DNA of 64,000 bases from NCBI RefSeq assembly GCF_004349105.1, contig NZ_SMLB01000026.1:1-64000 (forward strand), given 5' to 3'. Under the pieces are notes generated by a model, which was not told where the DNA came from, made no database searches, and saw nothing but the letters and a program-made list of their open reading frames with translations. This document shows positions 4,672 to 63,339 of this stretch, in pieces (the stretch's first letter is position 1; every line of letters begins with the position of its first letter). The position numbers and the translations under genes were made by a program. The DNA is from Jiangella aurantiaca (lineage in GTDB: Bacteria > Actinomycetota > Actinomycetes > Jiangellales > Jiangellaceae).

Positions 4672-7632
4672 TCAGTCGAAGGCGTCCTCGGCGAGCAGGC
4701 CGGGCAACGTGTCCGGGTCGGCCAGCGCCTCGGCGAGCAGCCAGCGCTTCGCCCACTGACCGGTCGTCCAGGCCAGCCCGCGGGCCAGGCCGTCGGTGGT
4801 CGCGGCGTGGACGTCGTCGCCGTCGGGCCACCAGGCGACGGAGACGCCGCCGACCCGCAGGTCGTCGTGTTCGACGTAGGTCGGTGGCGCCGCGCCGAGC
4901 ACCGAGGCGACGGCGTCAGGCACCGGCTGCCGCCGCCCGGTGCCGGTCACCGCGGCGTCGTGCACGTCTGACGCGAGGTCGACGTCCAGGAGGTCGGCCA
5001 GGGCGACCGGCCCGGGGACGAGTCCGGGCAGGCCGAGCTGCAGCCAGTGCGGTCCGTCGCACACCACCACCGACGACGCTCGGACCACGCGGCTGCCGAC
5101 GCCGTCCGGGACCCGGATCCGGTCCGGCGGCCGCACGCCGGCCGGGTCGTGCGCGGCCAGCGCCGCGTACACCTGCGCGAGCGTCGCGGCCGGCAGGCTC
5201 AGGTCGTCATCGGCCAATCTGGTGAGGACGGCGTCCGGGTCGAGGTCGCCCGGCGAACGCGCCAGCCCGACGGCGGCCGCGAACGCGTCGTCGACCGGGA
5301 CGTCGGCGACCGGCAGCACCGCCCGCACCACCGCGTCGGCGTCGGGCAGCGCGAGCCCGGTCAGCGGCCGGCCGCCGATCCGGGCGTGCCGCCGCAGCCA
5401 CCAGGCGGTGTACGACGGCACGTCGCGCTGGCCGCCGCCGGCAAGGGTCAGCCGCACCGGCGACACGACGGCGGCCCGCGCGTCGGCGTCGGCGGCCAGC
5501 CATTCCAGCACGTGCGGCCAGGCGTCGTCGCGGACCAGGTCGAGATCGGCGACGGCGGTGAACTCGCCGGTGAGGGGTGGCACCGGCTGGCCCGGCAGGC
5601 CCGCCAGCACGTCGTCGACCCACCGGTCCTCGTCGTCGAGGTCGTGCCAAGTGTCCGGCTCCAACGTCACGTCGGTGTCGCGGACGACGGCGAACCCGTC
5701 GCGTACGCCGGCCGCCCGCAGGACGGCCGGGTCGAAGCGGCCCACCAGGTCCGGCGCGACGGTGAACTCGGCCGGGTCCGCGTCCAGGACCGCCAGCAGC
5801 GGCGATCCCGGCAGCAACAGCTCACGTGCCGGGACCGCGGCGCCCGTGGCGTCGGTCAGCGGCAGGCCGGCCAGCCACGGCTCGTCGGCGACGTCGAGGC
5901 CGGACTCGGCGAGCAGCCCGAGCACCGCCTCGGCGACCGGCGCGGGATCGTCGTCGCTCTCGGCGAGGTCGGCGACGGCGCCCTGGACCAGCGGGTCGCG
6001 CAGCACCGAGGCGGCGGTCGCGTCGACGGCGCCGAGCCGGTAGAGCAGCGGGTGGACGGCCTCCGGCGCGACGACGCGCAGGTCGAACGGCGCCAGCAGC
6101 TCCGGGCGCACCTCGCCGGGCACCAGCAGCCCACGCGGCCCGCGGACCAGCCGCCCGTCGGCCAGCGGCACCGGCAAGGCACCCAGCGACTCCTGGTCCG
6201 ACCCGTCCAGCGCGTCGTACAACGCCCGCCACGCCGCCGGCGTCTGCCGGTCCCCGGCCAGCTCGTCGACCACATCGGCCAGCGGCGTCACCGATGCGCC
6301 GAGCCCGGCCAGCACGTCCGGGCGCCACCAGTCGGTCGCGGGCAGCCCCGGGACCACCCCGCGAAGCGCCGCCGGGTCGCCGGTCCGGCTCAAGCCGTCG
6401 ACCAGGGTCACCTCCTCCGGACGCAGCCGCTCGCCGTCGGCGCCAGGCACGAACGGCGTGGCCGCCAGCGCCGTCCGGACCGCCCGGTGCAGCACGGCGT
6501 CGATCGCCTCGACCCCCAGCGGCCCCGGCACCAGCCTCAGCACACCCGCGCCCGGCACGGGCGGGACGAACGACGCGACCAGTCGCGCGTACACCTCGCC
6601 GACCTGCGCCGCCAGATGATCGAGCAGCGCACCCGGCACGACCCGGCGGCGCGAGGAGTCCAGCGGCAGCCCGGCGATCACCAGCGCCGGCAGGTCGGTG
6701 CGGTCGTCGGTGGGTGTGGGCGCGTGCACGACGGCCGGCAGCGACGGCGGTAGCGCGGCCGGCGCCCGTACCCCGGCCTCGTCGGACACCGGCACCGCGA
6801 CCGTCACCGACCAGCCCGGCCGGGACCGCTCCTCGAACGGCCGGTCCGCCATCAGTTCGTCGGGCGCGACGCCGGTGCGGGTCGCCAGCCGCCAGGTCCG
6901 TGTGCCGATCCGGCGCTCCACCAGCCCGTCCGCCAGCTGTGTCGGCGCGCCCGCGTCGAGCCGGCGGATCTCACCGTCGATGTCGACGACCAGCTCGCCC
7001 AGCCATGGCAGCGCCAGCAGCAGCGCGTCGTCGATCTCGGTGAGCAGCCGGCGGACCAGCCGGACGGCGGCGTCGTCGCGCAGCGGCAGCTCGACCGCGG
7101 TGTCGTACCCGTCCGGCACCGCACCGGCGGCCGGGAACGGCAGCCGCAGCACGGGCACCGCCTCGCCGCGCCGGGCCAGCTCGGCGGCCAGCCCCGGCAC
7201 CGACGCCGCGGCCGCGCCCGCCTCGGCCCGCGACCACCGCACGCCGCCGCCGGACGCCGTCAGCACCTGCGGCTCGTCGGTGACCGCCAGCACGGCGGCG
7301 AAGCCGACCCCGAACCGGCCGACGGTGTCGTCGTCGCGCTTGGTGGACGCGCGCAGCGTCGACAGCCCTTCGACCCCGGCCGCGTCGAGCGGCGCGCCGG
7401 TGTTGGTGGCCAGCAGCGTCGAGCCGTCGAGCCGCAGCAGCAGCCGCACCGGCAGACCGATCCTGGCGCCGGCGTCGGCGGCGTTCTGGGCCAGCTCGAC
7501 GACCACGCGGTCGCGGTAGGCCCCGCGGGCCAGCTCGTCCTCGGCGTTGGCGTCCTCGCGGAATCGGGCGGGCGACGCGGACCAGGCCGCCAGGACGCGC
7601 TCGCGCAGCGCCGCGGTGTCGAAGACGTCCAC
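4672..7632 (-). CDS. Sacsin-like GHKL ATPase domain protein
   Basis: The 986-aa protein begins with an Hsp90-like GHKL ATPase domain. The Bergerat helix reads 'VVELAQNAADAGARIG', and a 'VGRFGVGFAAVLAVTD' lid motif follows, as in sacsin/HSP90-like bacterial proteins. The rest is a long Ala/Leu/Asp-rich region without a domain I recognise. The start is the GTG at 7632, preceded by GGGAAAGGGAAAA; the open frame runs on upstream to 8280, but that part is an antisense shadow of DUF3027. The Shine-Dalgarno block belongs to a dispersed repeat (7641-7689). It lies downstream of the DUF3027 gene on the same strand, a neighbourhood I have seen in other actinomycetes. It is probably a chaperone-like ATPase; no client is known. 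Confidence 0.8.
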   Translation of the reverse strand: MDVFDTAALRERVLAAWSASPARFREDANAEDELARGAYRDRVVVELAQNAADAGARIGLPVRLLLRLDGSTLLATNTGAPLDAAGVEGLSTLRASTKRDDDTVGRFGVGFAAVLAVTDEPQVLTASGGGVRWSRAEAGAAAASVPGLAAELARRGEAVPVLRLPFPAAGAVPDGYDTAVELPLRDDAAVRLVRRLLTEIDDALLLALPWLGELVVDIDGEIRRLDAGAPTQLADGLVERRIGTRTWRLATRTGVAPDELMADRPFEERSRPGWSVTVAVPVSDEAGVRAPAALPPSLPAVVHAPTPTDDRTDLPALVIAGLPLDSSRRRVVPGALLDHLAAQVGEVYARLVASFVPPVPGAGVLRLVPGPLGVEAIDAVLHRAVRTALAATPFVPGADGERLRPEEVTLVDGLSRTGDPAALRGVVPGLPATDWWRPDVLAGLGASVTPLADVVDELAGDRQTPAAWRALYDALDGSDQESLGALPVPLADGRLVRGPRGLLVPGEVRPELLAPFDLRVVAPEAVHPLLYRLGAVDATAASVLRDPLVQGAVADLAESDDDPAPVAEAVLGLLAESGLDVADEPWLAGLPLTDATGAAVPARELLLPGSPLLAVLDADPAEFTVAPDLVGRFDPAVLRAAGVRDGFAVVRDTDVTLEPDTWHDLDDEDRWVDDVLAGLPGQPVPPLTGEFTAVADLDLVRDDAWPHVLEWLAADADARAAVVSPVRLTLAGGGQRDVPSYTAWWLRRHARIGGRPLTGLALPDADAVVRAVLPVADVPVDDAFAAAVGLARSPGDLDPDAVLTRLADDDLSLPAATLAQVYAALAAHDPAGVRPPDRIRVPDGVGSRVVRASSVVVCDGPHWLQLGLPGLVPGPVALADLLDVDLASDVHDAAVTGTGRRQPVPDAVASVLGAAPPTYVEHDDLRVGGVSVAWWPDGDDVHAATTDGLARGLAWTTGQWAKRWLLAEALADPDTLPGLLAEDAFD

Positions 7633-7640
7633 GGGCTGTT

Positions 7641-7689
7641 TTCCCTTTCCCTTGTGGGACTCTCCACCGCCTGGGACCTCGCGGTCGGC
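7641..7689 (-). repeat. Copy A of the ~53-nt structured dispersed repeat
   Basis: Read on the minus strand, this stretch holds GCCGACCGCGAGGTCCCAGG, then GAGTCCC-ACA-AGGGAAAGGG. It matches copies at 44786-44838, 52184-52230 and 52730-52782. Two small hairpins can form: GACC-GCGA-GGTC and TCCC-ACAA-GGGA. Its purine-rich 3' end lies just before the GTG start of the sacsin-like gene and serves as its Shine-Dalgarno sequence. Confidence 0.8.
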
Positions 7690-7703
7690 TTGGGGGCGGT
7701 TCC

Positions 7704-8477
7704 CTACGGCGCGTCGAGCTCCAGCGGCACCAGCTCGTAGCTGAGGGTGTCGACGACCGGCTCCGCGGCGTCGTCGGACGGCGGCGGCAGCCGCACGTCG
7801 GAGTGCCCGCCGCAGCCGTGCGCGTGCGAGACGACCTTCCCGTCGAACGGGGTGCGCTCGTTGGTGCACACGCCGAAGGCGTGGCCGAGAGTGCCGGCCA
7901 GCAGCACCGAGAACCCGCAGCTGCCGCACCGGCCGGGCGCCCCCTTCGCGATGTCGGTGTGCGGGCCGGTGTCGCCCTCGTACCAGCGCAGCGCGGTGTC
8001 GTCGCGGCCCTCGCGCGACAGCACCCACTCGCGACCGAGGCCGAGCTCCCGGACCACCTCGAGGACGTCCTGGTCGTCGGCCGACAGGTAGCCGGGCTCG
8101 ATGCGGTAGTCGTCCTCGGCGACGGGCAGCAGGTCGCCGGGGCCGAGGTCCTCGGGCTTGACACGGTCTTCCCACGGCACCCAGGCCGGTGCCAGGACGG
8201 CGTCGGCGCCGGGCAGCAGCACGCACTCGCTGACGGTGACCACCTTGGACCGCGACGCCCGGGTGACGGTGACCGCCCACCGCCAGCCGACGTACCCGGC
8301 CAGCCGGCAGGCGAAGTAGTGGGTGACGACCCGCTCACCCTCGGCGTCGTGGCCGAGGTGGTCGCCGACGGCGTCCTCGCTGCCGACGTCGACGGCCGCC
8401 GCTCGCGCTTCCTCGACGGCCTTGACGAGGACGGAGTCGGCCTTGGCGGGGCGGGTACGAGACGATGTGGCGGTCAC
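7704..8477 (-). CDS. DUF3027 family protein
   Basis: I recognise the actinobacterial DUF3027 family from 'CRLAGYVGWRWAVTVTRASR', 'VLLPGADAVLAPAWVPWEDR' and a C-terminal part with 'CGSCGFSVLLAG', 'CTNERTPFDG' and 'HGCGGH', a cysteine/histidine set that could bind zinc. I chose the GTG at 8477 (start VTATSSRTRPAKADSV), which matches how the family begins; an in-frame ATG at 8531 would add 18 residues that look unlike protein. The GTG has no good Shine-Dalgarno, so a leaderless message is possible. The product is 257 aa and cytoplasmic. Function is unknown. It is followed after 71 bases, filled by a dispersed repeat, by the sacsin-like gene. Confidence 0.85.
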   Translation of the reverse strand: MTATSSRTRPAKADSVLVKAVEEARAAAVDVGSEDAVGDHLGHDAEGERVVTHYFACRLAGYVGWRWAVTVTRASRSKVVTVSECVLLPGADAVLAPAWVPWEDRVKPEDLGPGDLLPVAEDDYRIEPGYLSADDQDVLEVVRELGLGREWVLSREGRDDTALRWYEGDTGPHTDIAKGAPGRCGSCGFSVLLAGTLGHAFGVCTNERTPFDGKVVSHAHGCGGHSDVRLPPPSDDAAEPVVDTLSYELVPLELDAP

Positions 8478-50666: not shown

Positions 50667-52727
50667 ATGTCCGCCGACCCCGTCCTGCACGCCGAGCGCG
50701 AGCACCTGCGCCGTTCCCGCGCCGACCTCGAGGCGATGCGCGAGCACACCCTCTCGCTGACGGCGCAGGGCAGCGACCACGTGTCGACCGAGTACCTGAA
50801 GGCCGCGCTGTACCGGCGGGCGAAGGCGCTGGCGGACGACCCGAACCTGCCGCTGTTCTTCGGCCGCATCGACCGCACCGACGATGAATCGGACGAGACG
50901 TACGAAACCTTTCATATCGGCCGGCGGCACGTCATGGACGGCAACGGCGACCCGATGGTCGTCGACTGGCGGGCGGACGTGTCGCGTGCCTTCTATCGGG
51001 CGACCAGGGCCGACCCGCACGGCGTCACGCTGCGCCGCCGCTACGGGTTCGCCGGCGGCGAGCTGACGTCGTACGAGGACGAGCACCTGCTGGACCCGGG
51101 TGAGGCCGACATCACCAGCCGCATCCTCACCGAGGAGATCGAGCGGCCGCGCGTCGGCCCGATGCGCGACATCGTCGCGACCATCCAGCCGGAGCAGGAC
51201 GAAGTGGTCCGGGCGAGCCTGGACCGGACGGTGTGCGTCCAGGGCGCGCCGGGCACCGGCAAGACCGCCGTCGGGTTGCACCGGGCGGCGTTCCTGCTGC
51301 ACACGTACCGCGAACGGCTGGCCCGCACCGGCGTGCTGGTCATCGGCCCGAATCAGGCGTTCCTGCACTACATCGCCCAGGTGCTGCCGACACTCGGCGA
51401 GGTGGACGTCCGCCAGGTCACCGTCGCGGAGCTGGTCGAGAGCGTCCCGATCAGGGGCACCGACAACCCCGAGACGGCCGCCCTGAAGGGCGACGAACGC
51501 CTTGCGACCGTCATCCGCAACGCGATCTGGTCGCACGTCCAGGAGCCGGCCGAGACGCTCTACGTCACCCGCGGCACCCGGCGCTGGCGGGTCCCGGTGC
51601 ACGAGGCCGCCGACGCGATCCGGACGCTGCGCGAACGCGGCGACGGCTACACCACGGCCCGCTCACTGCTCGGCCAGCGGCTGGCCCACCGGATCCTGCT
51701 GCGCATGGAGGCGGCCGGCGAGATCACCGACGACCGCGTCCAGAACGCCGTGGCCCGGTCCCGGCCGGTGAAGGACTACGTCGACCAGCTGTGGCCGGCG
51801 CTGGACCCGGTGAAGCTGGTCATGCGGCTGCTCAGCGAGCCGGAGCTGCTCGCCACCGCCGCTGACGGAATCCTCGGCGACGACGAAAGGCAACGGCTGC
51901 TCTGGCGCAAGCCCGCCCGCGGCCCGAAGACCGCACCGTGGTCGCACGCCGACGCCGTCCTGGTCGACGAGGCCGCCGCGGCGCTCGAGCGGGTCCCCGG
52001 CGTGGGGCACGTCGTGCTGGACGAGGCGCAGGACCTCTCCCCCATGGAACTGCGCGCCGTCGGCCGTCGCGCGGCCACCGGTTCGCTGACCATCCTCGGC
52101 GACATCGCCCAGGGCACGACGCCATGGGCGACGCCGTCGTGGCCGGAGGCGCTACGCCATCTCGCCCACGACGACGCGCATCCCCCTTTCCCTCCTGGGA
52201 CTCACCGCCGCCCGGGACCTCGCGGTCGGCCTCCGGCCACCCTCGAGGTGCTGCGCAAGGGCTACCGCGTCCCGGCCGCCGTCGTCGAGTTCGCCGGCCG
52301 GCTGCTGCCGGTCATCGCGCCGGGCATCGCGCCGCCGGAGCCGGTCCGGTCCAACCCCGGCCGCCTGGACGTGACGCGAGCGCCCGGCGGCGACCTGCGC
52401 GCAGCCGTCGCCGACGCCGTCAGGGAGGTCGCTGCGCGCGAGGGCTCGGTCGGCGTCATCGTCGCCGACGACGCCGCCCCCGAGGTCGCGGCGGCGCTCG
52501 ACGACGCCGGTCCGCCGTACGGGCAGCTCGCCGACGACGCCCGGATCACGCTGCTGCCGGCCACGCTCGCCAAGGGTCTGGAGTACGACCACGTGGTCGT
52601 CGTCGAGCCGGCCGCCATCGTCGCGGCCGAGCCGGCCGGGCTGCGCCGCCTCTACGTCGTGCTCACCCGCGCGGTGTCGTCGCTCACCGTCGTGCACTGC
52701 CACCCCCTGCCAGACGCGCTGGCCTAG
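50667..52727 (+). CDS. HelD-like UvrD/SF1 helicase with in-frame repeat insertion
   Basis: The 686-aa protein starts at ATG 50667 behind TGGAGG. The N-terminal coiled region ('HAEREHLRRSRADLEAMREH') and 'FGRIDRTDDESDETYHIG'-type segment are typical of HelD/HelR, which bind RNA polymerase and remove it from DNA; some confer rifampicin tolerance. Walker A is GAPGTGKT (193-200), motif II 'HVVLDEAQDLSPMELR', then 'GDIAQGTTPWA', 'GYRVP' and the closing 'LYVVLTRAVSSLTVVH'. Residues about 506-523 (Pro/Gly/Arg-rich) are encoded by copy B of the dispersed repeat, inserted in frame between 'GDIAQGTTPWA' and 'GYRVP', where homologues as I recall them are shorter. Activity of the altered protein is unknown. 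Confidence 0.88.
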   Translation: MSADPVLHAEREHLRRSRADLEAMREHTLSLTAQGSDHVSTEYLKAALYRRAKALADDPNLPLFFGRIDRTDDESDETYETFHIGRRHVMDGNGDPMVVDWRADVSRAFYRATRADPHGVTLRRRYGFAGGELTSYEDEHLLDPGEADITSRILTEEIERPRVGPMRDIVATIQPEQDEVVRASLDRTVCVQGAPGTGKTAVGLHRAAFLLHTYRERLARTGVLVIGPNQAFLHYIAQVLPTLGEVDVRQVTVAELVESVPIRGTDNPETAALKGDERLATVIRNAIWSHVQEPAETLYVTRGTRRWRVPVHEAADAIRTLRERGDGYTTARSLLGQRLAHRILLRMEAAGEITDDRVQNAVARSRPVKDYVDQLWPALDPVKLVMRLLSEPELLATAADGILGDDERQRLLWRKPARGPKTAPWSHADAVLVDEAAAALERVPGVGHVVLDEAQDLSPMELRAVGRRAATGSLTILGDIAQGTTPWATPSWPEALRHLAHDDAHPPFPPGTHRRPGPRGRPPATLEVLRKGYRVPAAVVEFAGRLLPVIAPGIAPPEPVRSNPGRLDVTRAPGGDLRAAVADAVREVAAREGSVGVIVADDAAPEVAAALDDAGPPYGQLADDARITLLPATLAKGLEYDHVVVVEPAAIVAAEPAGLRRLYVVLTRAVSSLTVVHCHPLPDALA
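52184..52230 (-). repeat. Copy B of the dispersed repeat, inside the HelD coding sequence
   Basis: On the minus strand it reads GCCGACCGCGAGGTCCCGGG, then GAGTCCC-AGG-AGGGAAAGGG, with both hairpins (GACC-GCGA-GGTC and TCCC-AGGA-GGGA). It lies antisense within the helicase gene and is translated as Pro/Gly/Arg-rich residues. The insertion keeps the frame. Confidence 0.8.
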
Positions 52728-52729
52728 CG

Positions 52730-52782
52730 GCCGACCGCGAGGTCCCAGGCGGCGGCGAGTCCCGGAAGGGAAAGGAGACCAG
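52730..52782 (+). repeat. Copy C of the dispersed repeat, between HelD and the ether-lipid operon
   Basis: It contains GCCGACCGCGAGGTCCCAGG and GAGTCCC-GGA-AGGGAAAGGA, with hairpins GACC-GCGA-GGTC and TCCC-GGAA-GGGA (GNRA-type loops on both). It begins 3 bases after the HelD stop. Unlike copies A and D it is not followed by a start codon at ribosome-binding distance. The following stretch to 52915 shows no gene; a weak TATTGT (52833-52838) is the only -10-like hexamer. Confidence 0.8.
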
Positions 52783-52915
52783 TTCACCAGTAGCGATACG
52801 ATGCCGATGCCCGCGAAGGGCTACATTCTGTGTATTGTCTGCACGGCGTATGGGGTCATCGGCACCCCCCGAACATCGCTCGAGGTGAGCGACGGCACCT
52901 GCCTGGGGAGGGCGC

Positions 52916-52975
52916 ATGGCATCTGACTTCGACCTGGCACGGGCCGGACGCGGTGCCCTGGGAACCCACCCGTGA
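52916..52975 (+). CDS. Possible 19-aa leader peptide coupled to the ether-lipid operon
   Basis: ATG 52916 follows GGGGAGGG at close spacing and opens a 19-codon frame (MASDFDLARAGRGALGTHP) whose stop overlaps the GTG of the acyl-CoA reductase (GTGA). The strong ribosome binding site in front of so short a frame, and its exact overlap, suggest translational coupling. The reductase GTG itself has no Shine-Dalgarno. Alternatively it is a chance frame. Confidence 0.4.
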   Translation: MASDFDLARAGRGALGTHP

Positions 52976-55269
52976 GCGCCACCACGGCCAGCGGAGGAAC
53001 CTCGATCTTGCACGGCGCACACGTTCTCCTCACCGGCGCGACCGGGTTCGTCGGACAGGCACTGCTCGAGAAGCTGCTGTCGAGCTACCCGGACACCCGG
53101 GTGACCCTGATCGTCCGGCCGCGCGGCGCGCTCACCGCGCAGGACCGCATCGACCGGCTGTTCCGCAAGCCCGTCTTCAGCACCTGGCGCAAGGCCGTCG
53201 GTGACGACGAGGCCGAGCGGCAGTACCGCGAGCGGGTCACCGTCCTCGAGGGCGACCTCGGCGAGCTGCCGCCGCTCCCGTCCGATGTCGACGTCGTCAT
53301 CCACTCGGCGTCCACCGTCTCCTTCGACCTGCCGATCGACGAGGCGTTCGCCTCCAATGTGTCCGGGCCGGAGTCGCTCTACCGAGCGCTGCTCGCCGGC
53401 GGCACCGACCCGCACGTCGTGCACGTCTCCACGGGCTACGTCGCCGGGCTGCGGAAGGGCATCGTCGAGGAGCGCAGCCTCGAGCACGACGTCGACCGCG
53501 TCGCCGAGCTCGCGTACGCCCAGGCCGCCCGGCCCGACATCGAACGGCTCTCCCGCAGCCCGCGGCTGCTGCGCCGGCTGCTCACGCAGGCGCAGGCCGA
53601 GCACGGCCGGGCCGGCGCGCGCGTCGTCACCGGCGCCGCCGAGCAGGCCCGGCACGACTGGGTCCGCGCCGAACTGGTCGAGGCCGGCCGCACCCGGGCG
53701 CAGAGCCTGGGCTGGCCCGACGTCTACACGTTCACCAAAGCGCTGGGCGAGCGGGTCGCCGAGGACCTCTGGGCCGGCGCCGGCCACCGGCTCACCGTCG
53801 TCCGGCCGACCATCATCGAGTCGTCTCTCAAGCACCCGTTCCCGGGCTGGATCGACGGCTTCAAGGTCGCCGATCCGCTGATCGCGGCGTACGGCCGCGG
53901 CCTGCTGCCGGAGTTCCCGGCGCTGGCCGACACCGTGCTCGACGTCATCCCGGTCGACTTCGTCGTCAACGCCGCCCTGGCCGCGGCCGCCTCGCCGCCC
54001 CCGCCGGGCGAGGCGCAGTACTTCCAGGTCAGCTCCGGCATCACCAATCCACTGCCGTTCGGCCGGCTGCTCCGGCTGGTGCACGAGTACTTCGAGGCCA
54101 ACCCGCTCACGGACGCCAAGGGCGGCCACCTCGCCGTCCCGTCGTGGTCGTTCCCGCACCGCGGCGTGGTCGAGCGCGCGCTGCGCCGTCGCGAGCGGGT
54201 CGTCGACGTCGCCGACAAGGCGGTCGACCGGCTGCCGCCGGGCGAGCGGACGCGCAAGTGGATCTCCACCATCTACCGGGCCCGGCGCGACCTCGACACG
54301 CTGCGCAAGTTCACCTCGCTGTACCAGCCGTACACCGAGACCGAGGTCATCTTCGACGACGCCAAGCTGCGGGCGTTGCACGCGTCGCTGCCCGACGAGC
54401 GCAAGGCCGAGCACGGCTTCGACGTCACCGAGATCGACTGGGCGCACTACCTGCAGAAGATCCACATCCCGGGGGTGCCCGGCCTGACCCGCGGCAGCGG
54501 CGGCGACGGCTCCAGCGCCGGCCCCGCGCCGCTGGAGCTGCCGGAGCGCACCGACGTCGTGGCCGTCTTCGACCTGCAGAAGACCGTCGCCGCGGCGACA
54601 CTGGTCGAGCACTACGTGTGGATCGAGCTGGCCGCCAAGCCGCTGTCGCGGTGGCCGGTCGTGCTGAGCAACCTGGTCGCGCTGGGCCCTCGCTACCTGC
54701 AGGCCGAACGGCGCGACCGCGGCGACTTCATCCGCACGTTCATGCGCCGCTACGAGGGCGTCAACGAGAACGAGCTGCGCAAGATCATCGCCGACGAGGT
54801 GACGGTGTCGCTGCACCGCGGCCTCTTCGAGCAGGCACTGGAGCGCATCAAGGCGCACCGCGCGGCCGGGCACCGCACCGTCCTGCTCACCGGCGAGATC
54901 GACGTGTTCGTCGAGCCGCTGGCGCCGCTGTTCGACGTCATGGTCGCCGGCAAGATGGAGTCCGACGAGACCGGCCGGTGGACGGGGCACCTGGCCACGC
55001 CGCCGCTGGTCGGCGAGGCGCGGGCCGCCTGGCTGCGCCGCTACGCCCGCACCGAGGGCCTGGACCTCGCCGGCTCGTACGCCTACGGCGACAGCTACGC
55101 GGACCGTTCCTGGCTGGAGGTCGTCGGCCACCCCAACGCCGTCAACCCTGACGCCAGCCTGTACCGGTACGCCAAGTCCAAGCGCTGGCCGGTGCACAGC
55201 TGGACCACCACCGCCGAGGGCCGGCTGTCGCCGGTCCTGCGCAGCGTGCGGGGAGCACGACGGGCATGA
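52972..55269 (+). CDS. Fatty acyl-CoA reductase (NAD-binding_4 type) fused to degenerate HAD domain
   Basis: The 765-aa protein begins with an extended-SDR reductase domain of the 'male sterility'/FAR type: 'HVLLTGATGFVGQALLEKLL' near residue 15, 'VDVVIHSASTVSFDLPIDEAF' in part, 'HVSTGYVAG', catalytic Tyr252-x-x-x-Lys256 ('YTFTKALGE') and 'VVRPTIIESS'. A FAR-C-like helical region follows, then a HAD-IB-like domain (about 525-765) with 'VFDLQKTV' (Asp534, but Gln536 where the second catalytic Asp belongs), 'LLTGEID' and 'GDSYADRSWLE'. The start is GTG 52972; TTG 53008 behind GGAGG is an alternative. It should reduce fatty acyl-CoA to fatty alcohol, the alkyl donor for ether lipids. Coupled by ATGA to the SDR gene. 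Confidence 0.87.
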   Translation: MSATTASGGTSILHGAHVLLTGATGFVGQALLEKLLSSYPDTRVTLIVRPRGALTAQDRIDRLFRKPVFSTWRKAVGDDEAERQYRERVTVLEGDLGELPPLPSDVDVVIHSASTVSFDLPIDEAFASNVSGPESLYRALLAGGTDPHVVHVSTGYVAGLRKGIVEERSLEHDVDRVAELAYAQAARPDIERLSRSPRLLRRLLTQAQAEHGRAGARVVTGAAEQARHDWVRAELVEAGRTRAQSLGWPDVYTFTKALGERVAEDLWAGAGHRLTVVRPTIIESSLKHPFPGWIDGFKVADPLIAAYGRGLLPEFPALADTVLDVIPVDFVVNAALAAAASPPPPGEAQYFQVSSGITNPLPFGRLLRLVHEYFEANPLTDAKGGHLAVPSWSFPHRGVVERALRRRERVVDVADKAVDRLPPGERTRKWISTIYRARRDLDTLRKFTSLYQPYTETEVIFDDAKLRALHASLPDERKAEHGFDVTEIDWAHYLQKIHIPGVPGLTRGSGGDGSSAGPAPLELPERTDVVAVFDLQKTVAAATLVEHYVWIELAAKPLSRWPVVLSNLVALGPRYLQAERRDRGDFIRTFMRRYEGVNENELRKIIADEVTVSLHRGLFEQALERIKAHRAAGHRTVLLTGEIDVFVEPLAPLFDVMVAGKMESDETGRWTGHLATPPLVGEARAAWLRRYARTEGLDLAGSYAYGDSYADRSWLEVVGHPNAVNPDASLYRYAKSKRWPVHSWTTTAEGRLSPVLRSVRGARRA

Positions 55270-56051
55270 CGGAGCCGCTGCTCACCGGCCGGGCGCTGGT
55301 CACCGGCGGGACGTCCGGCATCGGCCTCGCCTTCGCCAACGCGCTGGCCGCCCGTGGCTGCGACCTCGTCCTGGTGGCCCGCGACGAGGACCGTCTCAAG
55401 CGCACCGCCGACGAGCTGCGCCAGCGGTACCGCGTCGACGTCGAGGTGCTGGCGGCCGACCTCGCCGACCGCGCCGAGGTCGACGCCGTCGCCGCCCGGC
55501 TGACCGACCAGGACTCCCCCGTCGAGGTCTTCGTCAACAACGCCGGCAGGGGCGTCCACTCCCGTCTGGTCACCGACGACACCAGCGAGCACGAGCACGC
55601 CATCGACCTCATGATCACCGCGGTCGTCGTGCTCGGCGCGGCCGCCGCCCGCACCATGCGCGAGCGCGGGCACGGTGTCATCGTCAACGTGTCGTCGGTC
55701 GCGGGACTCATCACGATGGGCGGCTACTCGGCGGTGAAGTCGTTCGTCCGCACCTACTCCGAGAGCCTGTCGCTCGAGCTGGCCGGCACCGGCGTGCAGG
55801 TGACGGCGCTGCTTCCGGGCTGGGTGCGCACGGAGTTCCACGAGCGGGCCGGCATCCGGACCGGCTCCATCCCGTCGTCGCTGTGGCTCGACGCCGACCG
55901 CGTGGTGGCCGATTGTCTGGCCGATGTCGAGAAGCGGCGGGTCCGTTCGGTACCGTCAGCACGGTTCAAGGTCCTGGCCTGGCTGGCCGAGCACGCCCCT
56001 CGGGCGGCGGTGCGGAAGGTCACGGCGCGACTGGTGAGCGGACGACGATGA
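55266..56051 (+). CDS. SDR family oxidoreductase (candidate acyl/alkyl-DHAP reductase)
   Basis: The 261-aa classical SDR has 'TGGTSGIG' (residues about 13-20), 'NNAG', 'VNVSSVAG' and the Tyr154-x-x-x-Lys158 pair ('YSAVKSF'). The C-terminal 'LPGWVRTEFHERAG' and the basic, slightly amphipathic end resemble SDRs that act on lipid substrates at membranes. Between a fatty acyl-CoA reductase and an acyltransferase/alkyl-DHAP synthase, the likely reaction is NADPH reduction of 1-alkyl-DHAP to 1-alkyl-glycerol-3-phosphate. Starts in the previous stop and overlaps the next start, so translation is coupled. Confidence 0.88.
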   Translation: MTEPLLTGRALVTGGTSGIGLAFANALAARGCDLVLVARDEDRLKRTADELRQRYRVDVEVLAADLADRAEVDAVAARLTDQDSPVEVFVNNAGRGVHSRLVTDDTSEHEHAIDLMITAVVVLGAAAARTMRERGHGVIVNVSSVAGLITMGGYSAVKSFVRTYSESLSLELAGTGVQVTALLPGWVRTEFHERAGIRTGSIPSSLWLDADRVVADCLADVEKRRVRSVPSARFKVLAWLAEHAPRAAVRKVTARLVSGRR

Positions 56052-56818
56052 GCGAACTGCCGAGTACGAAGAGGTACCACGCGGCCTGGCACCGCTGGGC
56101 CCGGTTCGTGGCGCAGCGCCTGCTCCTGCGTCCGGTCGTGCACCTGACGACGAAGGTGACGGTGCGCGGCGCGGAGAACCTCGACGGGCTGGCCGTGCCG
56201 TTCATCGTCGTGGCCAACCACAGCAGCCACCTCGACGCGCCGCTGCTCGTCACCGAGCTGCCGCGACGCTACACCCGCACGATGGCCGTCAACGCCGCCG
56301 CCGACTACTTCTACCGCTGGTGGTGGATGAAGGCGACCACGTCGGTGTTCTTCAACACCTACCCGGTGAGCCGCACGAACGCCGACATGGGAAAGGGCCG
56401 CGGCCTGGCCAACCGGCTGCTGAGCGAGAACGTCCCGGTCGTCGTGTTCCCCGAGGGCACCCGGCGCAACACCGAGGGCGGCGTCAAGCGGTTCAAGCCC
56501 GGCGCGGCCGCGCTGAGCATCACGCAGAGCGTGCCGTGCGTGCCGGTGGCGATCATCGGCACGGACCACGCCATGCCGGTCGGGCACTGGTGGCCGAAGC
56601 GGGGCCGGCCGCCGGTGGCGCTGGTCATCGGCACACCGATCCACCCGCAGCCTGGGGAACGGACCCGCGAACTGACCGAACGGCTCGAGGCGAAGGTGGC
56701 CGCCATGGTGGCCACCGGCGACCCCGACGCCGAGGGGAAACCGCTACGCGACGCCACCGAACCGGACGAGTCGGCGGAACAGGCGAGCGACCGCGCGCAG
56801 AAGGAGGAGGCGTCGTGA
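56048..56818 (+). CDS. PlsC-type 1-acylglycerol-3-phosphate / DHAP acyltransferase
   Basis: The 256-aa protein starts at ATG 56048 in the SDR stop. It has the acyltransferase motifs 'VANHSSHLDAPL' (His58, Asp63; H-x4-D), 'FNTYPVSR', 'FPEGTRRN' (134-139) and 'VPCVPVAIIG'. This makes it a membrane-associated LPLAT/PlsC enzyme. Within this operon it could acylate DHAP to start ether-lipid synthesis (the GNPAT role) or acylate sn-2 of alkyl-glycerol-3-phosphate; the motifs do not decide. The C-terminus is charged and disordered. Its stop overlaps the next gene's GTG. Confidence 0.9.
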   Translation: MSELPSTKRYHAAWHRWARFVAQRLLLRPVVHLTTKVTVRGAENLDGLAVPFIVVANHSSHLDAPLLVTELPRRYTRTMAVNAAADYFYRWWWMKATTSVFFNTYPVSRTNADMGKGRGLANRLLSENVPVVVFPEGTRRNTEGGVKRFKPGAAALSITQSVPCVPVAIIGTDHAMPVGHWWPKRGRPPVALVIGTPIHPQPGERTRELTERLEAKVAAMVATGDPDAEGKPLRDATEPDESAEQASDRAQKEEAS

Positions 56819-58503
56819 CGGGTGTCAAGCATCAAAAGTGGTGGGGCTGGGGGGTCGAGGGCATCGCCTTCACCCACGAGGACAAGCCGAAGCTGGCGCC
56901 GTTCGTCATGGAGAAGATCGGCATCGACCTCAACGCGCCCGGCACGCCGCCGCCCGCGTTCGAGGACCTCAAGGTGCCGGCCTCCCAGCTGGACGACGAC
57001 CTCGCCGCGAAGTTGCGCGACGCCCTGGGTGAGCAGTACGTCAACACCGACGACCTCGACCGCGTGGTGCACACCTATGGCAAGGGGCTGGTCGACCTCG
57101 TCCGGGTCCGCGCCGGCGACCTCCCCCGCGTCCCCGACGTCGTGGTCTACCCCGGCGACGAGGACCAAGTGCGGCAGGTGGTCGACGCCGTGGTGGCGGC
57201 CGACGGCGTCCTCATCCCGTTCGGCGGTGGCTCGAACATCTCCGGCTCGCTGACCCCGCCGCCGGCCGAGCAGCGCGTCGTCGTCTCCCTCGACCTCGGC
57301 CGGCTCAACCGGGTGCTCGAAATCGACGAGGCTGCCGGGCTGGCCCGGGTCCAGGCCGGCGCGCTCGGGCCGGACCTCGAGGACCAGCTCAACGCCCGCG
57401 GCTGGACCATGGGCCACCAGCCGGACAGTTTCAAACACTCGACACTGGGCGGCTGGATCGCGACGCGCAGCTCGGGCATGCAGTCGGACAAGTATGGAGA
57501 TATCAGTGACATCGCTCGAGGTATGCGTGTCGTGCTGCCGGGCAAGGTGATCGCCCTGCGGCCGCTGCCGAGCACGTCGTCGGGCCCGAGCGTCCGCGAG
57601 ATGATCCTGGGCTCCGAGGGCCGTCTGGGCGTCATCACCGAGGCCTGGGTCAACGTCCACCGGGTTCCGGAGAACCGCGAGATCATCGCGTACCTGTTCC
57701 CGACGTGGGCGGCGGGCATCGCTGCGATGCACGAGATCTCCGAGTCCGACGCGTCGCCGACGGTCACCCGCGTCTCCGACGCCAACGAGACCGCGTTCTC
57801 GCTGTCCATGCAGAAGCCGTCGAAAGGGCTGGCGGCGAAGGCCGGCCCGATCCTGTTCAATGTGCTGGAGCGGCGCGGCTGGGACCTGTCCGCGGCGTGC
57901 CTGTCCTACATCGGCTACGAGGGCGCGGAGTCCCACCTCAAGCACCAGAAGGCCATCGTCGGCAAGATCGTGAAGAAGCACGGCGGCATCAAACTGGGCA
58001 ACGGCCCGGGCGCGCTGTACGACCAGAAGAAGTTCGACACCCCTTACATCCGCGACTTCCTCCTCGACATCGGCGCGCTCGGCGACGTGTCCGAGACCGC
58101 GGCGCCGTGGTCGAAGCTGATGAACCTGTACGCCAACACCATCCGGGCGGCCACCGACGCCTTCGACGAGTTGGGCGTCAAGGGGTTCGCGATGTGCCAC
58201 CTGTCGCACAGCTACCACTCCGGCGCGTGCCTGTACTTCACCTTCGCGTTCCCGCCCAGCACCGACGTGCCGGCTGAGCAGATCGAGCAGTACTGGGTGG
58301 TGAAGAAGGCGATCCAGCAGTCGTTCATCGACAACGAGGCCACCATCTCGCACCACCACGGCGTCGGCACCGACCACGCGCACTGGCTCGAGGACGACAT
58401 CTCACCGGCCGGCACCGACGTCATGGCCGGGCTCCTCGAGTCGGTCGACCCAGGCCGGAACCTCAACCCTGGGACGCTGCTGCCAGCTCACCGGGAGTGG
58501 TGA
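56815..58503 (+). CDS. agpS: Alkyl-dihydroxyacetonephosphate synthase (AGPS-like, FAD)
   Basis: The 562-aa protein begins 'KWWGWGVEGIAF', matching the K-W-x-G-W-G start of AGPS. It has the VAO-type FAD domain ('VPFGGGSNISGS'-like stretch near 136, 'HQPDSFKHSTLGGWIATRSSGM' in part from His201, 'GSEGRLGVITEAWV') and the substrate domain with 'SYHSGACLYFTFAF' and the catalytic triple histidine 513-515 ('SHHHGVGTDHAHWL'). These are the hallmarks that set AGPS apart from lactate and glycolate oxidases. It would replace the acyl group of acyl-DHAP with a fatty alcohol, making the ether bond. The start is GTG 56815 overlapping the PlsC stop. Its end overlaps the convergent MFS gene by 41 bases. Confidence 0.88.
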   Translation: MTGVKHQKWWGWGVEGIAFTHEDKPKLAPFVMEKIGIDLNAPGTPPPAFEDLKVPASQLDDDLAAKLRDALGEQYVNTDDLDRVVHTYGKGLVDLVRVRAGDLPRVPDVVVYPGDEDQVRQVVDAVVAADGVLIPFGGGSNISGSLTPPPAEQRVVVSLDLGRLNRVLEIDEAAGLARVQAGALGPDLEDQLNARGWTMGHQPDSFKHSTLGGWIATRSSGMQSDKYGDISDIARGMRVVLPGKVIALRPLPSTSSGPSVREMILGSEGRLGVITEAWVNVHRVPENREIIAYLFPTWAAGIAAMHEISESDASPTVTRVSDANETAFSLSMQKPSKGLAAKAGPILFNVLERRGWDLSAACLSYIGYEGAESHLKHQKAIVGKIVKKHGGIKLGNGPGALYDQKKFDTPYIRDFLLDIGALGDVSETAAPWSKLMNLYANTIRAATDAFDELGVKGFAMCHLSHSYHSGACLYFTFAFPPSTDVPAEQIEQYWVVKKAIQQSFIDNEATISHHHGVGTDHAHWLEDDISPAGTDVMAGLLESVDPGRNLNPGTLLPAHREW

Positions 58504-59716
58504 CGGGCGACGCCGGGCGCGGCCGCTGGGTGCGTAGCCGTACGACGGCGAGCACCACCGCGAGCGCCGCGGCGGTCACCGTCACGGCGAACGCGGGCCG
58601 GTGTCCGCCGAGGTCGGCCAGCCGGCCGGCGATGCCGGACCCGACGGCGTAGCCGATGCCGGTGGCGCCGGCCAGCAAGGTCATCGCCGCGCCGACCCGG
58701 GTGACCGGCACCTGCCGCTCGGCGGCGGCGAACACGCTGATCATGTACGGCGCGACGGCGAGGCCGAGGACCAGCACGACAGGGACCAGCGCGGCCAGCG
58801 ACCCGGCCAGCAGCAGCGGCGACGACAGCACGACGAGCCCGATCGCGAACACCAGGATCCGCCGGTCGTAACCGAACCGGGCGGGCAGCGCCGCGGTCGC
58901 CAGTCCGGCCAGCACACTGCCCACACCGAGCAGCGAGTGCACCAGGCCGGCCAGACCGGGCGAACCCGCGGCCGTGGCCAGAGCCGTCGTACCGGTCTGA
59001 GTGGCGCCGAAGATGACGCCGATGAGCAATTGGGCCAGGCAGAGGGTCAGGAACGCGACGGTGACGAACGACTCGCCGTGCGCGGCCGCGGACGCGCGCA
59101 GCGCGTGGGTCAGCCGGGCGGTCGAGTGCAGCGCGAACCACGAGCCGAACACCACCAGCAGCGCGGCCGCAGCGAGCAGCGCGCCGCGCGGGCTGAGCGC
59201 CACCGCGCCCAGGCCGACCAGCGCCGGGCCGAGCACGAACGACGCTTCGTCGGCGGCGCCCTCGTAGGAGAAGGCGGCGTCGACCAGCCGCGGCTGCGCG
59301 CTGCCGGTGCGGTGCGTGATGGGCCGCCACCGCACCCGCGCCAGCGGACCGACCTGCGGCATCGTGAACCCGGCGACGGCGGCCGCGGCGACGAGCACGG
59401 GGGTGCCGGCGCCGGCCTGGACGGCCGCGACCAGCGCGGCGAGCGCGACGCCCGCCGTCAGCGACTGTGCGAGCACGACCGGCCGCTGACCGACGCGGTC
59501 GGCGATGCCGCCGGCGAGCGGGGCGCCGACGGCGTTCGCGACGGCCAGCGCTCCGGCTGCCAGGCCACCGGCGGCGTACCGGCCGGTGGCGTCGGACACC
59601 AGCAGCAGCGTGCCGAGCTGGCTCATGGCCAGCGGCAACCGGCCCAAGAAGGCGACGACGACGTAACCGATGCCGGCCAGCGAGAGCAACCGGCGGTACG
59701 AGGCTAGAGGGGACAC
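58463..59716 (-). CDS. MFS transporter
   Basis: The 417-aa protein has about twelve membrane segments and the loop 2-3 motif 'GGIADRVGQRPVV' (G-x-x-x-D-x-x-G-x-R). The start is GTG 59716 with CGGAG five bases upstream; the frame is open farther upstream, but that region looks non-coding. Its last 41 bases overlap the AGPS gene on the other strand. Substrate unknown; a link with the ether-lipid operon is not supported. Confidence 0.85.
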   Translation of the reverse strand: MSPLASYRRLLSLAGIGYVVVAFLGRLPLAMSQLGTLLLVSDATGRYAAGGLAAGALAVANAVGAPLAGGIADRVGQRPVVLAQSLTAGVALAALVAAVQAGAGTPVLVAAAAVAGFTMPQVGPLARVRWRPITHRTGSAQPRLVDAAFSYEGAADEASFVLGPALVGLGAVALSPRGALLAAAALLVVFGSWFALHSTARLTHALRASAAAHGESFVTVAFLTLCLAQLLIGVIFGATQTGTTALATAAGSPGLAGLVHSLLGVGSVLAGLATAALPARFGYDRRILVFAIGLVVLSSPLLLAGSLAALVPVVLVLGLAVAPYMISVFAAAERQVPVTRVGAAMTLLAGATGIGYAVGSGIAGRLADLGGHRPAFAVTVTAAALAVVLAVVRLRTQRPRPASPVTTPGELAAASQG

Positions 59717-61045: not shown

Positions 61046-61351
61046 GTGACCACTGAGGAAGAGGCCACCGTCGCCAACCCGTATCGGGCGGCCATCGTCG
61101 GGCGACGCGACCAGTCCCGGCCACTTACCGAGGAGTTCGCCGCCGAGCTCGACGACGCGGTCGCGGCCATGAACGCCGGCGCCTGGATCAGCACCACCGC
61201 CGACACCTTCTTCGCCGAGCTCACCGGCCACGTCACGACCGTCGGCACCGCCGCCGAAGGCGTCATGGAGACCTACCGCACCGCCATCGAGGAACAGCCG
61301 GAGCAGGTCCCGCCGAACTCCTGGCAGACGCACTGGCGGAACCTGCGATGA
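61046..61351 (+). CDS. Small helical WXG100/LXG-partner-like protein
   Basis: The 101-aa product starts at GTG 61046 behind a perfect AGGAGG six bases away. It is predicted helical ('LTEEFAAELDDAVAAMNAGAWISTTADTFFAELTGHVTTVG' over two helices), with 'AGAWIST' at the turn in place of a strict W-x-G. Such small helical proteins sit before LXG-type toxins and act as chaperone or secretion partners of type VII systems. Its stop overlaps the toxin start (ATGA), so the two are made together. No type VII machinery is in the window. Confidence 0.7.
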   Translation: MTTEEEATVANPYRAAIVGRRDQSRPLTEEFAAELDDAVAAMNAGAWISTTADTFFAELTGHVTTVGTAAEGVMETYRTAIEEQPEQVPPNSWQTHWRNLR

Positions 61352-63339
61352 GCGTCGCCTCGATCGACCTGGAGCAGATGGCAGGGCTGATCCGGGCCAT
61401 GGAGAACGCCTCGACCGAGCTGGAGAGCAGGGTCGGCAGCGTCCGCGGGCACCTGACGGACGTGTGGCTGTCCACCGACGAGCTCGACCGCGTCAACGGC
61501 GTGCTCAGCTGGATCGACGAGGAGCTGCCGGGCCTGCGCCGGCGGCTGGCGCTGGCCCGGCACGTCGAGGCGCAGACGCCGGGCGTGCAGACGTTCGCGC
61601 AGATCGACGAGTCGACGATTTCCACCGCGACGCCGGAGGAGGCGCGCGAGCGGGCCGACCGCGCCGCCGAGCTGATCGAGGAGTACGACGACGGCGAGAT
61701 CCCCGAGGAGCTGCGCGAGCTGCTCGCCGACAACGCCACCGACCCGTACTTCGCGCAGCGGCTGGCCGAGCAGGTCAGCCCCGAAGAGGTCGCCGCCGTC
61801 GTCGTCGACATGTCCTACTCGCGTCAGGAGCTGGTCCGGAGCCAGGGCATGAGCCCGGACGTCAGTGAGGTCGACGCCTTCGACCAGCAGTACGAGGCGT
61901 TCGTGGCCGATCTCGGGACCACGCTCGGGCTGGCGACGCAGAACACCGGCGACCTCGCGCTGGACCCCGAGTACGCCGACCGGTGGCTCGAGGCGATCAT
62001 CACGGAGGAGGCGCCGACGATCGGCCAGGCCGGCGCGCTCGGTCTGGTGATCTCGCGCGGCTCGTGGTCCACCGACTTCCTCACCACCGTCGCCCGCGGC
62101 GTCTACGACTACGAGCGCGAGGTCGACGAGCGGGACATGTGGCGCAACCGTGCGTCGAGTGGGAGCGAGATCTTCGGCGCCATCGACCCCGTCGAGGGCC
62201 CCGACGACCAAGGCGCGCCGACCGGCTACACGCCGTACTACGACCCGCTGGCCGGCATCATGGCCGCCGTCGGCCGTAATCCCAGCGCCGGGCACGAGCT
62301 GTTCGGGCACGGCGACACGGTCGAGATCTCCGCCGACGGCGAGACCGCCCAGGTGAACGCGTTCATGGAGTACCTGATCGCGCGCCGCCGCTGGCCGGTC
62401 GACGAGGGCGCCGGCGCCCGCGAGGCGATCGCCGCGGCCATGACGCCGTTCGAGGGCGGCGACGTCATCAGCGCCGACATCGCCACCGGCGCACGCGCGA
62501 TCGTCACCATGAAGGCCGAGGAGATCGAGGCCCGCGGCGACGACACCAACTGGTTCTCCGAGATCGGCCACCTGGTCCTCGACGGCTTGGGCCTGATCCC
62601 GGTGGTCGGCGAGGCCTTCGACGCCGTCAACGCGGTCTGGTACGCCGCCGAGGGCAACGTCATCGACGCCGGGCTCTCCGCCGCGGCGCTGATCCCATTC
62701 CTCGGCTGGGGCTCCACCGCCGGCAAGTGGACCCGGCGCGCGCTGACAGCCGAGGAGCTGACCATCCTCGGCCGGCTCGACACGTTCCCGGCCGGCTTCG
62801 ACCACGTCTCGATGGTGGCCCGCGCCGACGGCGTCCCGCTGCCCACGTTCGAGTTCAGCAACCTGCGCGCGTTCAACCGCGCGGCCAACAACGCCCACCC
62901 GAACGCCCGTTATGTCTTCAACGGCGTCGCTTGGGAGACCGATTCGCTGGGCCGGCCGATCCGGGTGGAGGGCGCCCCGTCGGGCTCGGCGGCCGGGCGC
63001 AACCGGCGGCTGCAGCAGGGCATCGGGCACGAGGGCATCGACGGCGACGTCGGCTTCCACATCCTGGCCGACTCCCTCGGCGGTCCGACGAACCGGCTCA
63101 ACGTCGTCCCCGGCAACGGCAAGCCGCTGGGCGACGGCATGCGCAACCTCAACCAGGGCCGATACGCCGAGATGGAGCGCTACCTGCGCGAGGCGCTGGG
63201 CAACAACCAGAGCGTCGAGGTCGACATCCTCCCCCGGTACCGGCCGGACAACACGACCACCAGACCGGACTCGTTCACCGTGCGCACCTGGGTCGACGGT
63301 GAGCTGCGGGAGTTCGAGTTCCGGAACAGACCGGGTTAG
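61348..63339 (+). CDS. Polymorphic toxin with C-terminal DNA/RNA non-specific endonuclease domain
   Basis: The 663-aa protein begins with helices ('SIDLEQMAGLIRAMENASTELESRVG' in part) like type VII/LXG effectors. It continues with a long helical body and a hydrophobic pretoxin segment (about 410-455, 'GLGLIPVVGEAFDAVNAVWY'). The C-terminal nuclease domain (about 540-663) has 'GDVGFHILADSLGG' (His571 as base), 'NRLNVVPGN' and 'MRNLNQGRYAEMERYLREAL' in part, then 'VEVDILPRY'. This matches YeeF-type endonuclease toxins. It has no classical signal peptide. Immunity genes of one family lie on both sides. It probably kills or inhibits related bacteria. Confidence 0.85.
   Translation: MSVASIDLEQMAGLIRAMENASTELESRVGSVRGHLTDVWLSTDELDRVNGVLSWIDEELPGLRRRLALARHVEAQTPGVQTFAQIDESTISTATPEEARERADRAAELIEEYDDGEIPEELRELLADNATDPYFAQRLAEQVSPEEVAAVVVDMSYSRQELVRSQGMSPDVSEVDAFDQQYEAFVADLGTTLGLATQNTGDLALDPEYADRWLEAIITEEAPTIGQAGALGLVISRGSWSTDFLTTVARGVYDYEREVDERDMWRNRASSGSEIFGAIDPVEGPDDQGAPTGYTPYYDPLAGIMAAVGRNPSAGHELFGHGDTVEISADGETAQVNAFMEYLIARRRWPVDEGAGAREAIAAAMTPFEGGDVISADIATGARAIVTMKAEEIEARGDDTNWFSEIGHLVLDGLGLIPVVGEAFDAVNAVWYAAEGNVIDAGLSAAALIPFLGWGSTAGKWTRRALTAEELTILGRLDTFPAGFDHVSMVARADGVPLPTFEFSNLRAFNRAANNAHPNARYVFNGVAWETDSLGRPIRVEGAPSGSAAGRNRRLQQGIGHEGIDGDVGFHILADSLGGPTNRLNVVPGNGKPLGDGMRNLNQGRYAEMERYLREALGNNQSVEVDILPRYRPDNTTTRPDSFTVRTWVDGELREFEFRNRPG

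Follow-up and report, generated by a model that had tools for sequence, protein, structure and literature searches.

Do four overlapping genes of the actinomycete Jiangella aurantiaca encode a compact bacterial counterpart of the eukaryotic ether-lipid pathway? The window analysed here, a stretch of 64,000 nucleotides, lies on one of the 102 contigs of a 6.6 Mb genome, and direct reading of its open reading frames confirms the four genes and overlapping junctions that an earlier note had described at 52972–58503. All four lie on the plus strand: a fusion of a fatty acyl-CoA reductase (FAR) with a HAD domain (52972–55269, 765 aa), a short-chain dehydrogenase/reductase (SDR; 55266–56051, 261 aa), a PlsC-type acyltransferase (56048–56818, 256 aa) and a protein assigned below as alkyl-DHAP (alkylglycerone phosphate) synthase, AGPS (56815–58503, 562 aa). 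Each junction is a 4-bp overlap (ATGA at 55266, ATGA at 56048, GTGA at 56815). Every motif named in that note was recovered in the four translations, and Pfam agrees with its family call for each protein. The 5′ neighbour is a plus-strand helicase-like ORF ending at 52727 and the 3′ neighbour a convergent, minus-strand MFS-like ORF ending at 58463, both named by eye; the operon therefore sits among unrelated genes. A sequence scan of 52600–58700 found neither a sigma-70-like promoter nor an intrinsic terminator.

We note that the MFS-like ORF shares its last 41 bases (58463–58503) tail to tail with AGPS. At 61348–63339, a 663-aa ORF whose N-terminal part is helical and whose C-terminal part is nuclease-like by eye is possibly a secreted polymorphic protein.

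Gene 4 is well assigned as an AGPS with the catalytic Arg, Tyr and His residues kept; this identity, claimed from motifs before, is upheld by PDB match, residues and tree. The protein carries the Pfam domains FAD_binding_4 and FAD-oxidase_C, KWWGWG at residues 8–13, HHHGVG at 513–518, R319 and Y474. In a phmmer search against PDB sequences it matches Dictyostelium AGPS (2uuu, 1.1e-110) and guinea-pig AGPS (4bby, 4.1e-83), with D-lactate dehydrogenase and glycolate oxidase at 4.2e-18 and 7.8e-17. In the alignment, R319 and Y474 stand opposite the residues that differ in PDB entries 4bc7 and 4bca, and H513–515 opposite the HHH. In guinea-pig numbering we take the catalytic residues to be R419 and Y578 (the sites that differ in 4bc7 and 4bca) and H615–617. 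R319, Y474 and H513–515 are invariant across a 9-row AGPS alignment. In a tree of 53 rows, hand-picked from 102 and built by a short search with long branches for the outgroups and guinea pig, a 30-row group (SH-aLRT 99) unites the clade of the Jiangella protein, a Verrucomicrobiota/Planctomycetota/Acidobacteriota/KSB1 clade, one Gemmatimonadota row and eukaryotic AGPS, whereas the mycobacterial and myxobacterial homologues and three GlcD-like paralogues from the same genome fall outside it. Phylogeny against the D-lactate and glycolate dehydrogenases had been proposed as the test that could refute the assignment, and the protein does not cluster with them. The competing reading, that gene 4 encodes a D-lactate, glycolate or 2-hydroxyglutarate dehydrogenase-like oxidase whose linkage is incidental, can point to the two folds in common and to GlcD as best NCBIfam model (115 bits, below the cut-off of 568); it is highly improbable, because the PDB sequence match to AGPS is better by about 90 orders of magnitude, the AGPS-type Arg, Tyr and HHH are all there, and the tree sets gene 4 apart from the GlcD-like paralogues. 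Identity as GlcD or D-lactate dehydrogenase is ruled out by NCBIfam score, PDB search and tree.

The FAR1-type reductase part of gene 1 (residues ~10–515) is also well assigned. Pfam finds NAD_binding_4 (2.7e-49), HAD (5.3e-30) and Sterile (4.1e-9), the last barely above its cut-off (36.9 against 35.4 bits). TIGR01490 matches above cut-off, the best PDB sequence match is the FAR 7eoz (8.7e-56), and the GxxGxxG and YxxxK motifs are present as GATGFVG at residue 22 and YTFTK at 252. In the HAD-IB domain (residues ~531–728), motif I (54565–54585) reads FDLQKT, a D-x-Q form in which Gln replaces the second Asp of DxDxT, while motifs II and IV are kept. HAD phosphatases use this second Asp as their general acid/base, and its replacement therefore makes ordinary phosphatase activity doubtful. 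Across 29 FAR-HAD rows, eight keep D at this position, while 17 have E, three Q and one H; all 11 other Jiangella genomes have Q. Most AGPS-linked FAR-HAD proteins carry Glu, Gln or His there. With this Asp lost in the lineage, a working phosphatase is not favoured. The HAD half is nevertheless strongly conserved: of the five segments it has the lowest dN/dS against three of the four genomes compared, and against the remaining one only one segment is lower. It probably does not act as a standard phosphatase, and our guess is a structural or regulatory role.

The proteins encoded by genes 2 and 3 are less specific in their matches. The SDR (adh_short, 4.5e-42) has GGTSGIG at 14, NNAG at 91 and YSAVK at 154, and its best curated NCBIfam match, mycolate reductase, scores 179 bits, far under the cut-off of 380. 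It is, judged by these matches, a generic classical SDR with its motifs intact, proposed as an acyl/alkyl-DHAP reductase. The PlsC-type protein (PF01553, Acyltransferase, 1.2e-20) has HSSHLD at 58 and FPEGTR at 134 and matches a single PDB chain at E≤1, PlsC 5kym (2.7e-14); within the operon it could acylate DHAP (the GNPAT role) or alkyl-G3P (the AGPAT role). The genome encodes six PF01553 proteins and gave no match to PlsY, in a search whose control matched in 8 of 14 cases and not in Corynebacterium. PF01553 enzymes therefore probably carry out sn-1 acylation in this genome, and consequently the operon's PlsC (P0003) may have the DHAP-acylating role. Resemblance to the PlsC neighbours of an AGPS clade at 42–43% identity was uninformative as to specificity, since P0003 is the best own-genome PlsC match for five of the six, mostly by small margins.

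The search for the same gene order in other genomes, suggested in the earlier note, found it in all 11 other Jiangella genomes, so that all 12 share the four genes in one order and orientation, and found the gene set conserved together in an AGPS subfamily. Pairwise dN/dS against four of the 11 is 0.16–0.31 for the FAR segment, 0.11–0.14 for HAD, 0.23–0.32 for SDR, 0.24–0.31 for PlsC and 0.13–0.16 for AGPS. The operon is thus under purifying selection within the genus, and with this range of 0.11–0.32 and the same order and direction in all Jiangella genomes looked at, the four-gene set is not a product of chance.

Beyond the genus, a scan of named genomes confirmed at least 586 AGPS relatives, the best 80 of which were kept for locus reading (E≤1e-8, with flanks of varying length). 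Among these 80, the AGPS subfamily comprises 34 loci (L066–L098 and L102) at 53–80% identity; three of them, starting less than 0.7 kb before AGPS, were excluded, and the other 31 have at least 1.3 kb of upstream sequence. In these 31, out of the best 80 of at least 586, an SDR lies upstream of AGPS in 28 and a PlsC in 24, and FAR-HAD lies inside the fetched flank in 19, co-directional as in the window in two Georgenia loci and divergent in 17; four of the 12 loci with no nearby FAR-HAD have less than 4 kb of upstream sequence. Genome-wide, full-length FAR-HAD is present, linked or not, in 22 of 23 subfamily genomes (from 23 of the 34 loci), the exception being Actinoplanes. SDR and PlsC are absent upstream of AGPS in the Frankia, Kineococcus and Actinoplanes loci, four more subfamily loci have no PlsC, and in one Kineococcus locus (L085) the opposite strand carries an SDR-like gene (49%) 1.8 kb downstream. 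The remainder of the best 80 of at least 586 serve for comparison: 39 control loci with AGPS-like proteins at 34–40% contain a PlsC-like gene in none, a FAR-like gene in one and an SDR-like gene in three (2–9 kb away), and seven loci at 42–43% have a PlsC-like gene upstream in six and an SDR-like gene downstream in four.

A sample of 396 genomes of the phylum gave AGPS matches at E≤1e-30 in 129 and at ≥59% identity in three. FAR-HAD occurs in 93 of the 396 at E≤1e-60, 92 of these being without AGPS at ≥59%, and the fusion therefore has uses beyond the AGPS pathway. Of the three genomes with AGPS at ≥59%, only that of the window is among the 93; the other two (G366 and G409) have AGPS at 59–61% with an adjoining PlsC-like gene. 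In Microbacteriaceae, the family of Plantibacter, 59 of 199 genomes match AGPS at E≤1e-80, 55 at ≥59% and four with the distant type. Several actinobacterial families have related clusters, and the operon is no one-off.

Its history within the family is a separate matter. Among seven other Jiangellaceae genomes, three have AGPS at 64–67%, with FAR-HAD divergent. The window's AGPS groups with Georgenia at 100/100 support, not with its own family. A tree forced to unite it with the three other rows from its family is worse by 178 log units (p-AU 7e-48, for a constrained group picked after the quick 53-row tree had been seen), and vertical inheritance of AGPS within the family is rejected by this topology test. 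The Georgenia grouping (L066, L070) and the common co-directional order together make horizontal transfer of the operon probable. In two same-family clusters, the divergent SDR-PlsC-AGPS and FAR-HAD units are separated by what looks by eye like a TetR-like regulator (L048:12957–13556 and L046:6782–7528); none was noticed adjoining the window's operon.

In sum, we read the operon as a DHAP route to 1-O-alkyl glycerolipids, a reading from sequence to which we give a probability of about 0.8. FAR would convert acyl-CoA to fatty alcohol, and the PlsC-type enzyme would supply 1-acyl-DHAP or fill the sn-2 position later. AGPS, with FAD, would swap the acyl group for the fatty alcohol to give 1-alkyl-DHAP, and the SDR would reduce the ketone to 1-alkyl-G3P, which would enter normal phospholipid or glycolipid synthesis. 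The four protein families, the AGPS active-site residues and the conserved linkage are what can be read from the DNA itself. From these we infer the substrates of the SDR and PlsC enzymes, the chain type and the final lipid. The earlier proposal of a compact bacterial ether-lipid counterpart thus stands on AGPS identity and the conserved gene set, but its word "complete" and its mapping of four steps exceed the evidence: AGPS and FAR keep their places, whereas the PlsC could take the GNPAT or the AGPAT role, the SDR is generic and the HAD half probably does not work as an ordinary phosphatase. Counting against the DHAP route are the far broader occurrence of FAR-HAD than of AGPS, the generic nature of the SDR and PlsC families and the incompleteness of some subfamily loci. 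Disruption of the AGPS homologue MXAN_1676 in Myxococcus, which cut ether lipids only slightly according to PMC9131029, also counts against it.

The breadth of FAR-HAD in the phylum sample, with 92 of 93 genomes outside the group with AGPS at ≥59%, lends itself to another explanation, in which the fusion supplies fatty alcohols or wax esters and the operon leads to storage or specialised alkyl glycerols and not to membrane ether lipids. We consider this quite unlikely: FAR-HAD is nearly universal in the genomes of the AGPS subfamily and lies in the flank of AGPS in 19 of the 31 loci among the best 80 of at least 586, no wax synthase was noticed by eye among the ORFs of 49–63 kb, and the bacterial reductases FcrA and FarA are described as often serving other pathways, ether lipids included (PMC11948995). 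A different question is whether the alkyl lipid is the end product. It is possible, in our tentative estimate, that the operon makes an alkyl precursor which an O2-dependent desaturase other than CarF/PEDS1 then turns into a vinyl-ether (plasmalogen) lipid. Branched-chain dimethylacetals (DMAs) in aerobic actinobacteria argue for such an end product. In the aerobe Kineococcus rubinsiae, anteiso-C15:0 DMA at 2.9% by GC-MS is taken by its authors to indicate plasmalogens; they found the DMA surprising, as DMAs are usual in anaerobes, and noted the same in aerobic Subtercola (PMC7472656). Aerobic-actinobacterial DMAs have been on record since 2000 for Subtercola and later for Kineococcus. Four Subtercola species (Microbacteriaceae) contain 6.9–17% iso-C16:0 DMA (PMC5945732). 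On the genome side, two other Kineococcus genomes have AGPS at 59–60% together with FAR-HAD, and the 55 of 199 Microbacteriaceae genomes with AGPS at ≥59% point the same way. However, the species with DMAs and those whose genomes were read differ, the link running by genus or family and not by strain, and within Microbacteriaceae the same account gives little DMA for Agreia and none for Frondihabitans (PMC5945732). PF10520 (CarF/PEDS1) had no match at E≤0.1 in the Jiangella genome, in a search whose control matched in only 1 of 14, below cut-off, and none in 23 of 23 subfamily genomes, where the control was silent (0 of 14); absence of CarF/PEDS1 is thus not established.

Still more doubtful, but more specific, is the suggestion that the cluster supplies the genes so far missing for the branched-chain plasmalogens seen as DMAs in aerobic actinobacteria, with a CarF-independent, O2-dependent enzyme for the vinyl-ether step whose candidate in many Microbacteriaceae would be a ferritin-like pair flanking FAR-HAD. 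Two related ferritin-like genes flank FAR-HAD in 10 of 23 AGPS genomes (L077:4350–5144 and about 7569–8354; L071:3527–4354 and 6641–7570; further L093, L079 and L098), lie elsewhere in three and are missing from 10, both Kineococcus genomes included. All di-iron ligands are in place in the downstream copy (E45, E77xxH80, E141, E171xxH174), whereas the upstream copy keeps only part of them and is degenerate. For the downstream copy, Pfam matches to FA_desaturase_2 and Rubrerythrin are weak (5 of 10 members, best 7.8e-5) and stay under the cut-off in the one member displayed. A fold search with the predicted model of the full-pattern copy (pLDDT 87.5) returned acyl-ACP desaturases and R2-like oxidases, with one match under E 0.001, TM about 0.5–0.6 and large rmsd. 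As a desaturase candidate the pair is speculative. The Jiangella genome has one ferritin-like gene (L154:8033–8827, contig C63), 68% identical and unlinked to the operon. An obligate partnership with AGPS is not supported, given the 10 AGPS genomes with no such gene and the same-family genome G018, which has one without subfamily AGPS.

How does the proposed DHAP route compare with known systems? The eukaryotic peroxisomal steps are carried out by FAR1, GNPAT, AGPS and PexRAP/DHRS7B (PMC9131029). The reductase, synthase and SDR families are alike, and the Jiangella AGPS is eukaryote-like in active site and tree position, whereas the Jiangella genes form one operon with no organelle, FAR is fused to HAD, and the acyltransferase is PlsC-type, with the GNPAT role only proposed. 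Myxobacteria are the best-studied aerobic bacterial case, yet most of their ether-lipid steps are described as uncharacterised; in Myxococcus xanthus, the operons MXAN_1676–1674 and elbA–E similarly group AGPS, FAR and acyltransferase in an ether-lipid-making aerobe, and elbB encodes a HAD protein (PMC9131029). The M. xanthus FAR is joined to an acyltransferase in MXAN_1675 or forms part of the multidomain ElbD (PMC9131029), unlike the Jiangella FAR, which is fused to HAD with SDR and PlsC separate. No ElbD-type FAR-ACS-ACP-AT multidomain protein is found among the four operon proteins, and two Myxococcota AGPS rows (MXAN_1676 not being among the tree rows) fall outside the clade of the Jiangella AGPS.

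The mycobacterial AGPS-like proteins of Rv3107c type belong to the same family, at 34–37% identity in 13 loci among the best 80 of at least 586, but form a separate clade; these 13 loci gave no FAR- or PlsC-like hits, and SDR-like hits in two, 2 kb and 9 kb away (E≤1e-8, flanks varying). The Rv3107c-type gene is known as agpS. Ether lipids are on record for another Actinomycetota group: Sinninghe Damste reportedly described in 2023 the ether/ester membrane lipids of Rubrobacterales. In 'Ca. Promineifilum breve', an acyl-CoA reductase gene and an AGPS gene are also close together, with an ether-lipid role already proposed, but the reductase is FcrA, the two are nine genes apart, and the available text of that account describes no SDR-PlsC-AGPS operon (PMC11948995). 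The anaerobic plsA/plsR system likewise yields ether-type chains in bacteria, some Actinobacteria included, but does so by reducing ready-made diacyl lipid esters and involves neither DHAP nor an alcohol or AGPS step (PMC9702350).

Black Sea metagenomes had already yielded AGPS homologues from Actinobacteria (PMC11868695); the proximity of AGPS to a different acyl-CoA reductase and the Rubrobacterales ether lipids are also in print. Among the papers listed by our literature search there was no description of the actinobacterial operon, its spread, the FAR-HAD fusion and its altered motif I, the Georgenia grouping or the aerobic-DMA link. What is new here is the loss of the second motif I Asp in this lineage, the Georgenia grouping and the link to aerobic DMAs. 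We regard the operon type as well supported and its chemistry as familiar: the locus represents a variation on the AGPS ether-lipid pathway.

The operon may help to explain ether-type lipids that have been reported, unexplained, in some aerobic bacteria. As a eukaryote-like AGPS operon with relatives in several actinobacterial families, cultured strains included, it offers a compact genetic entry point to the whole route, and it brings the dimethylacetals of aerobic Subtercola and Kineococcus within reach of a genetic test.
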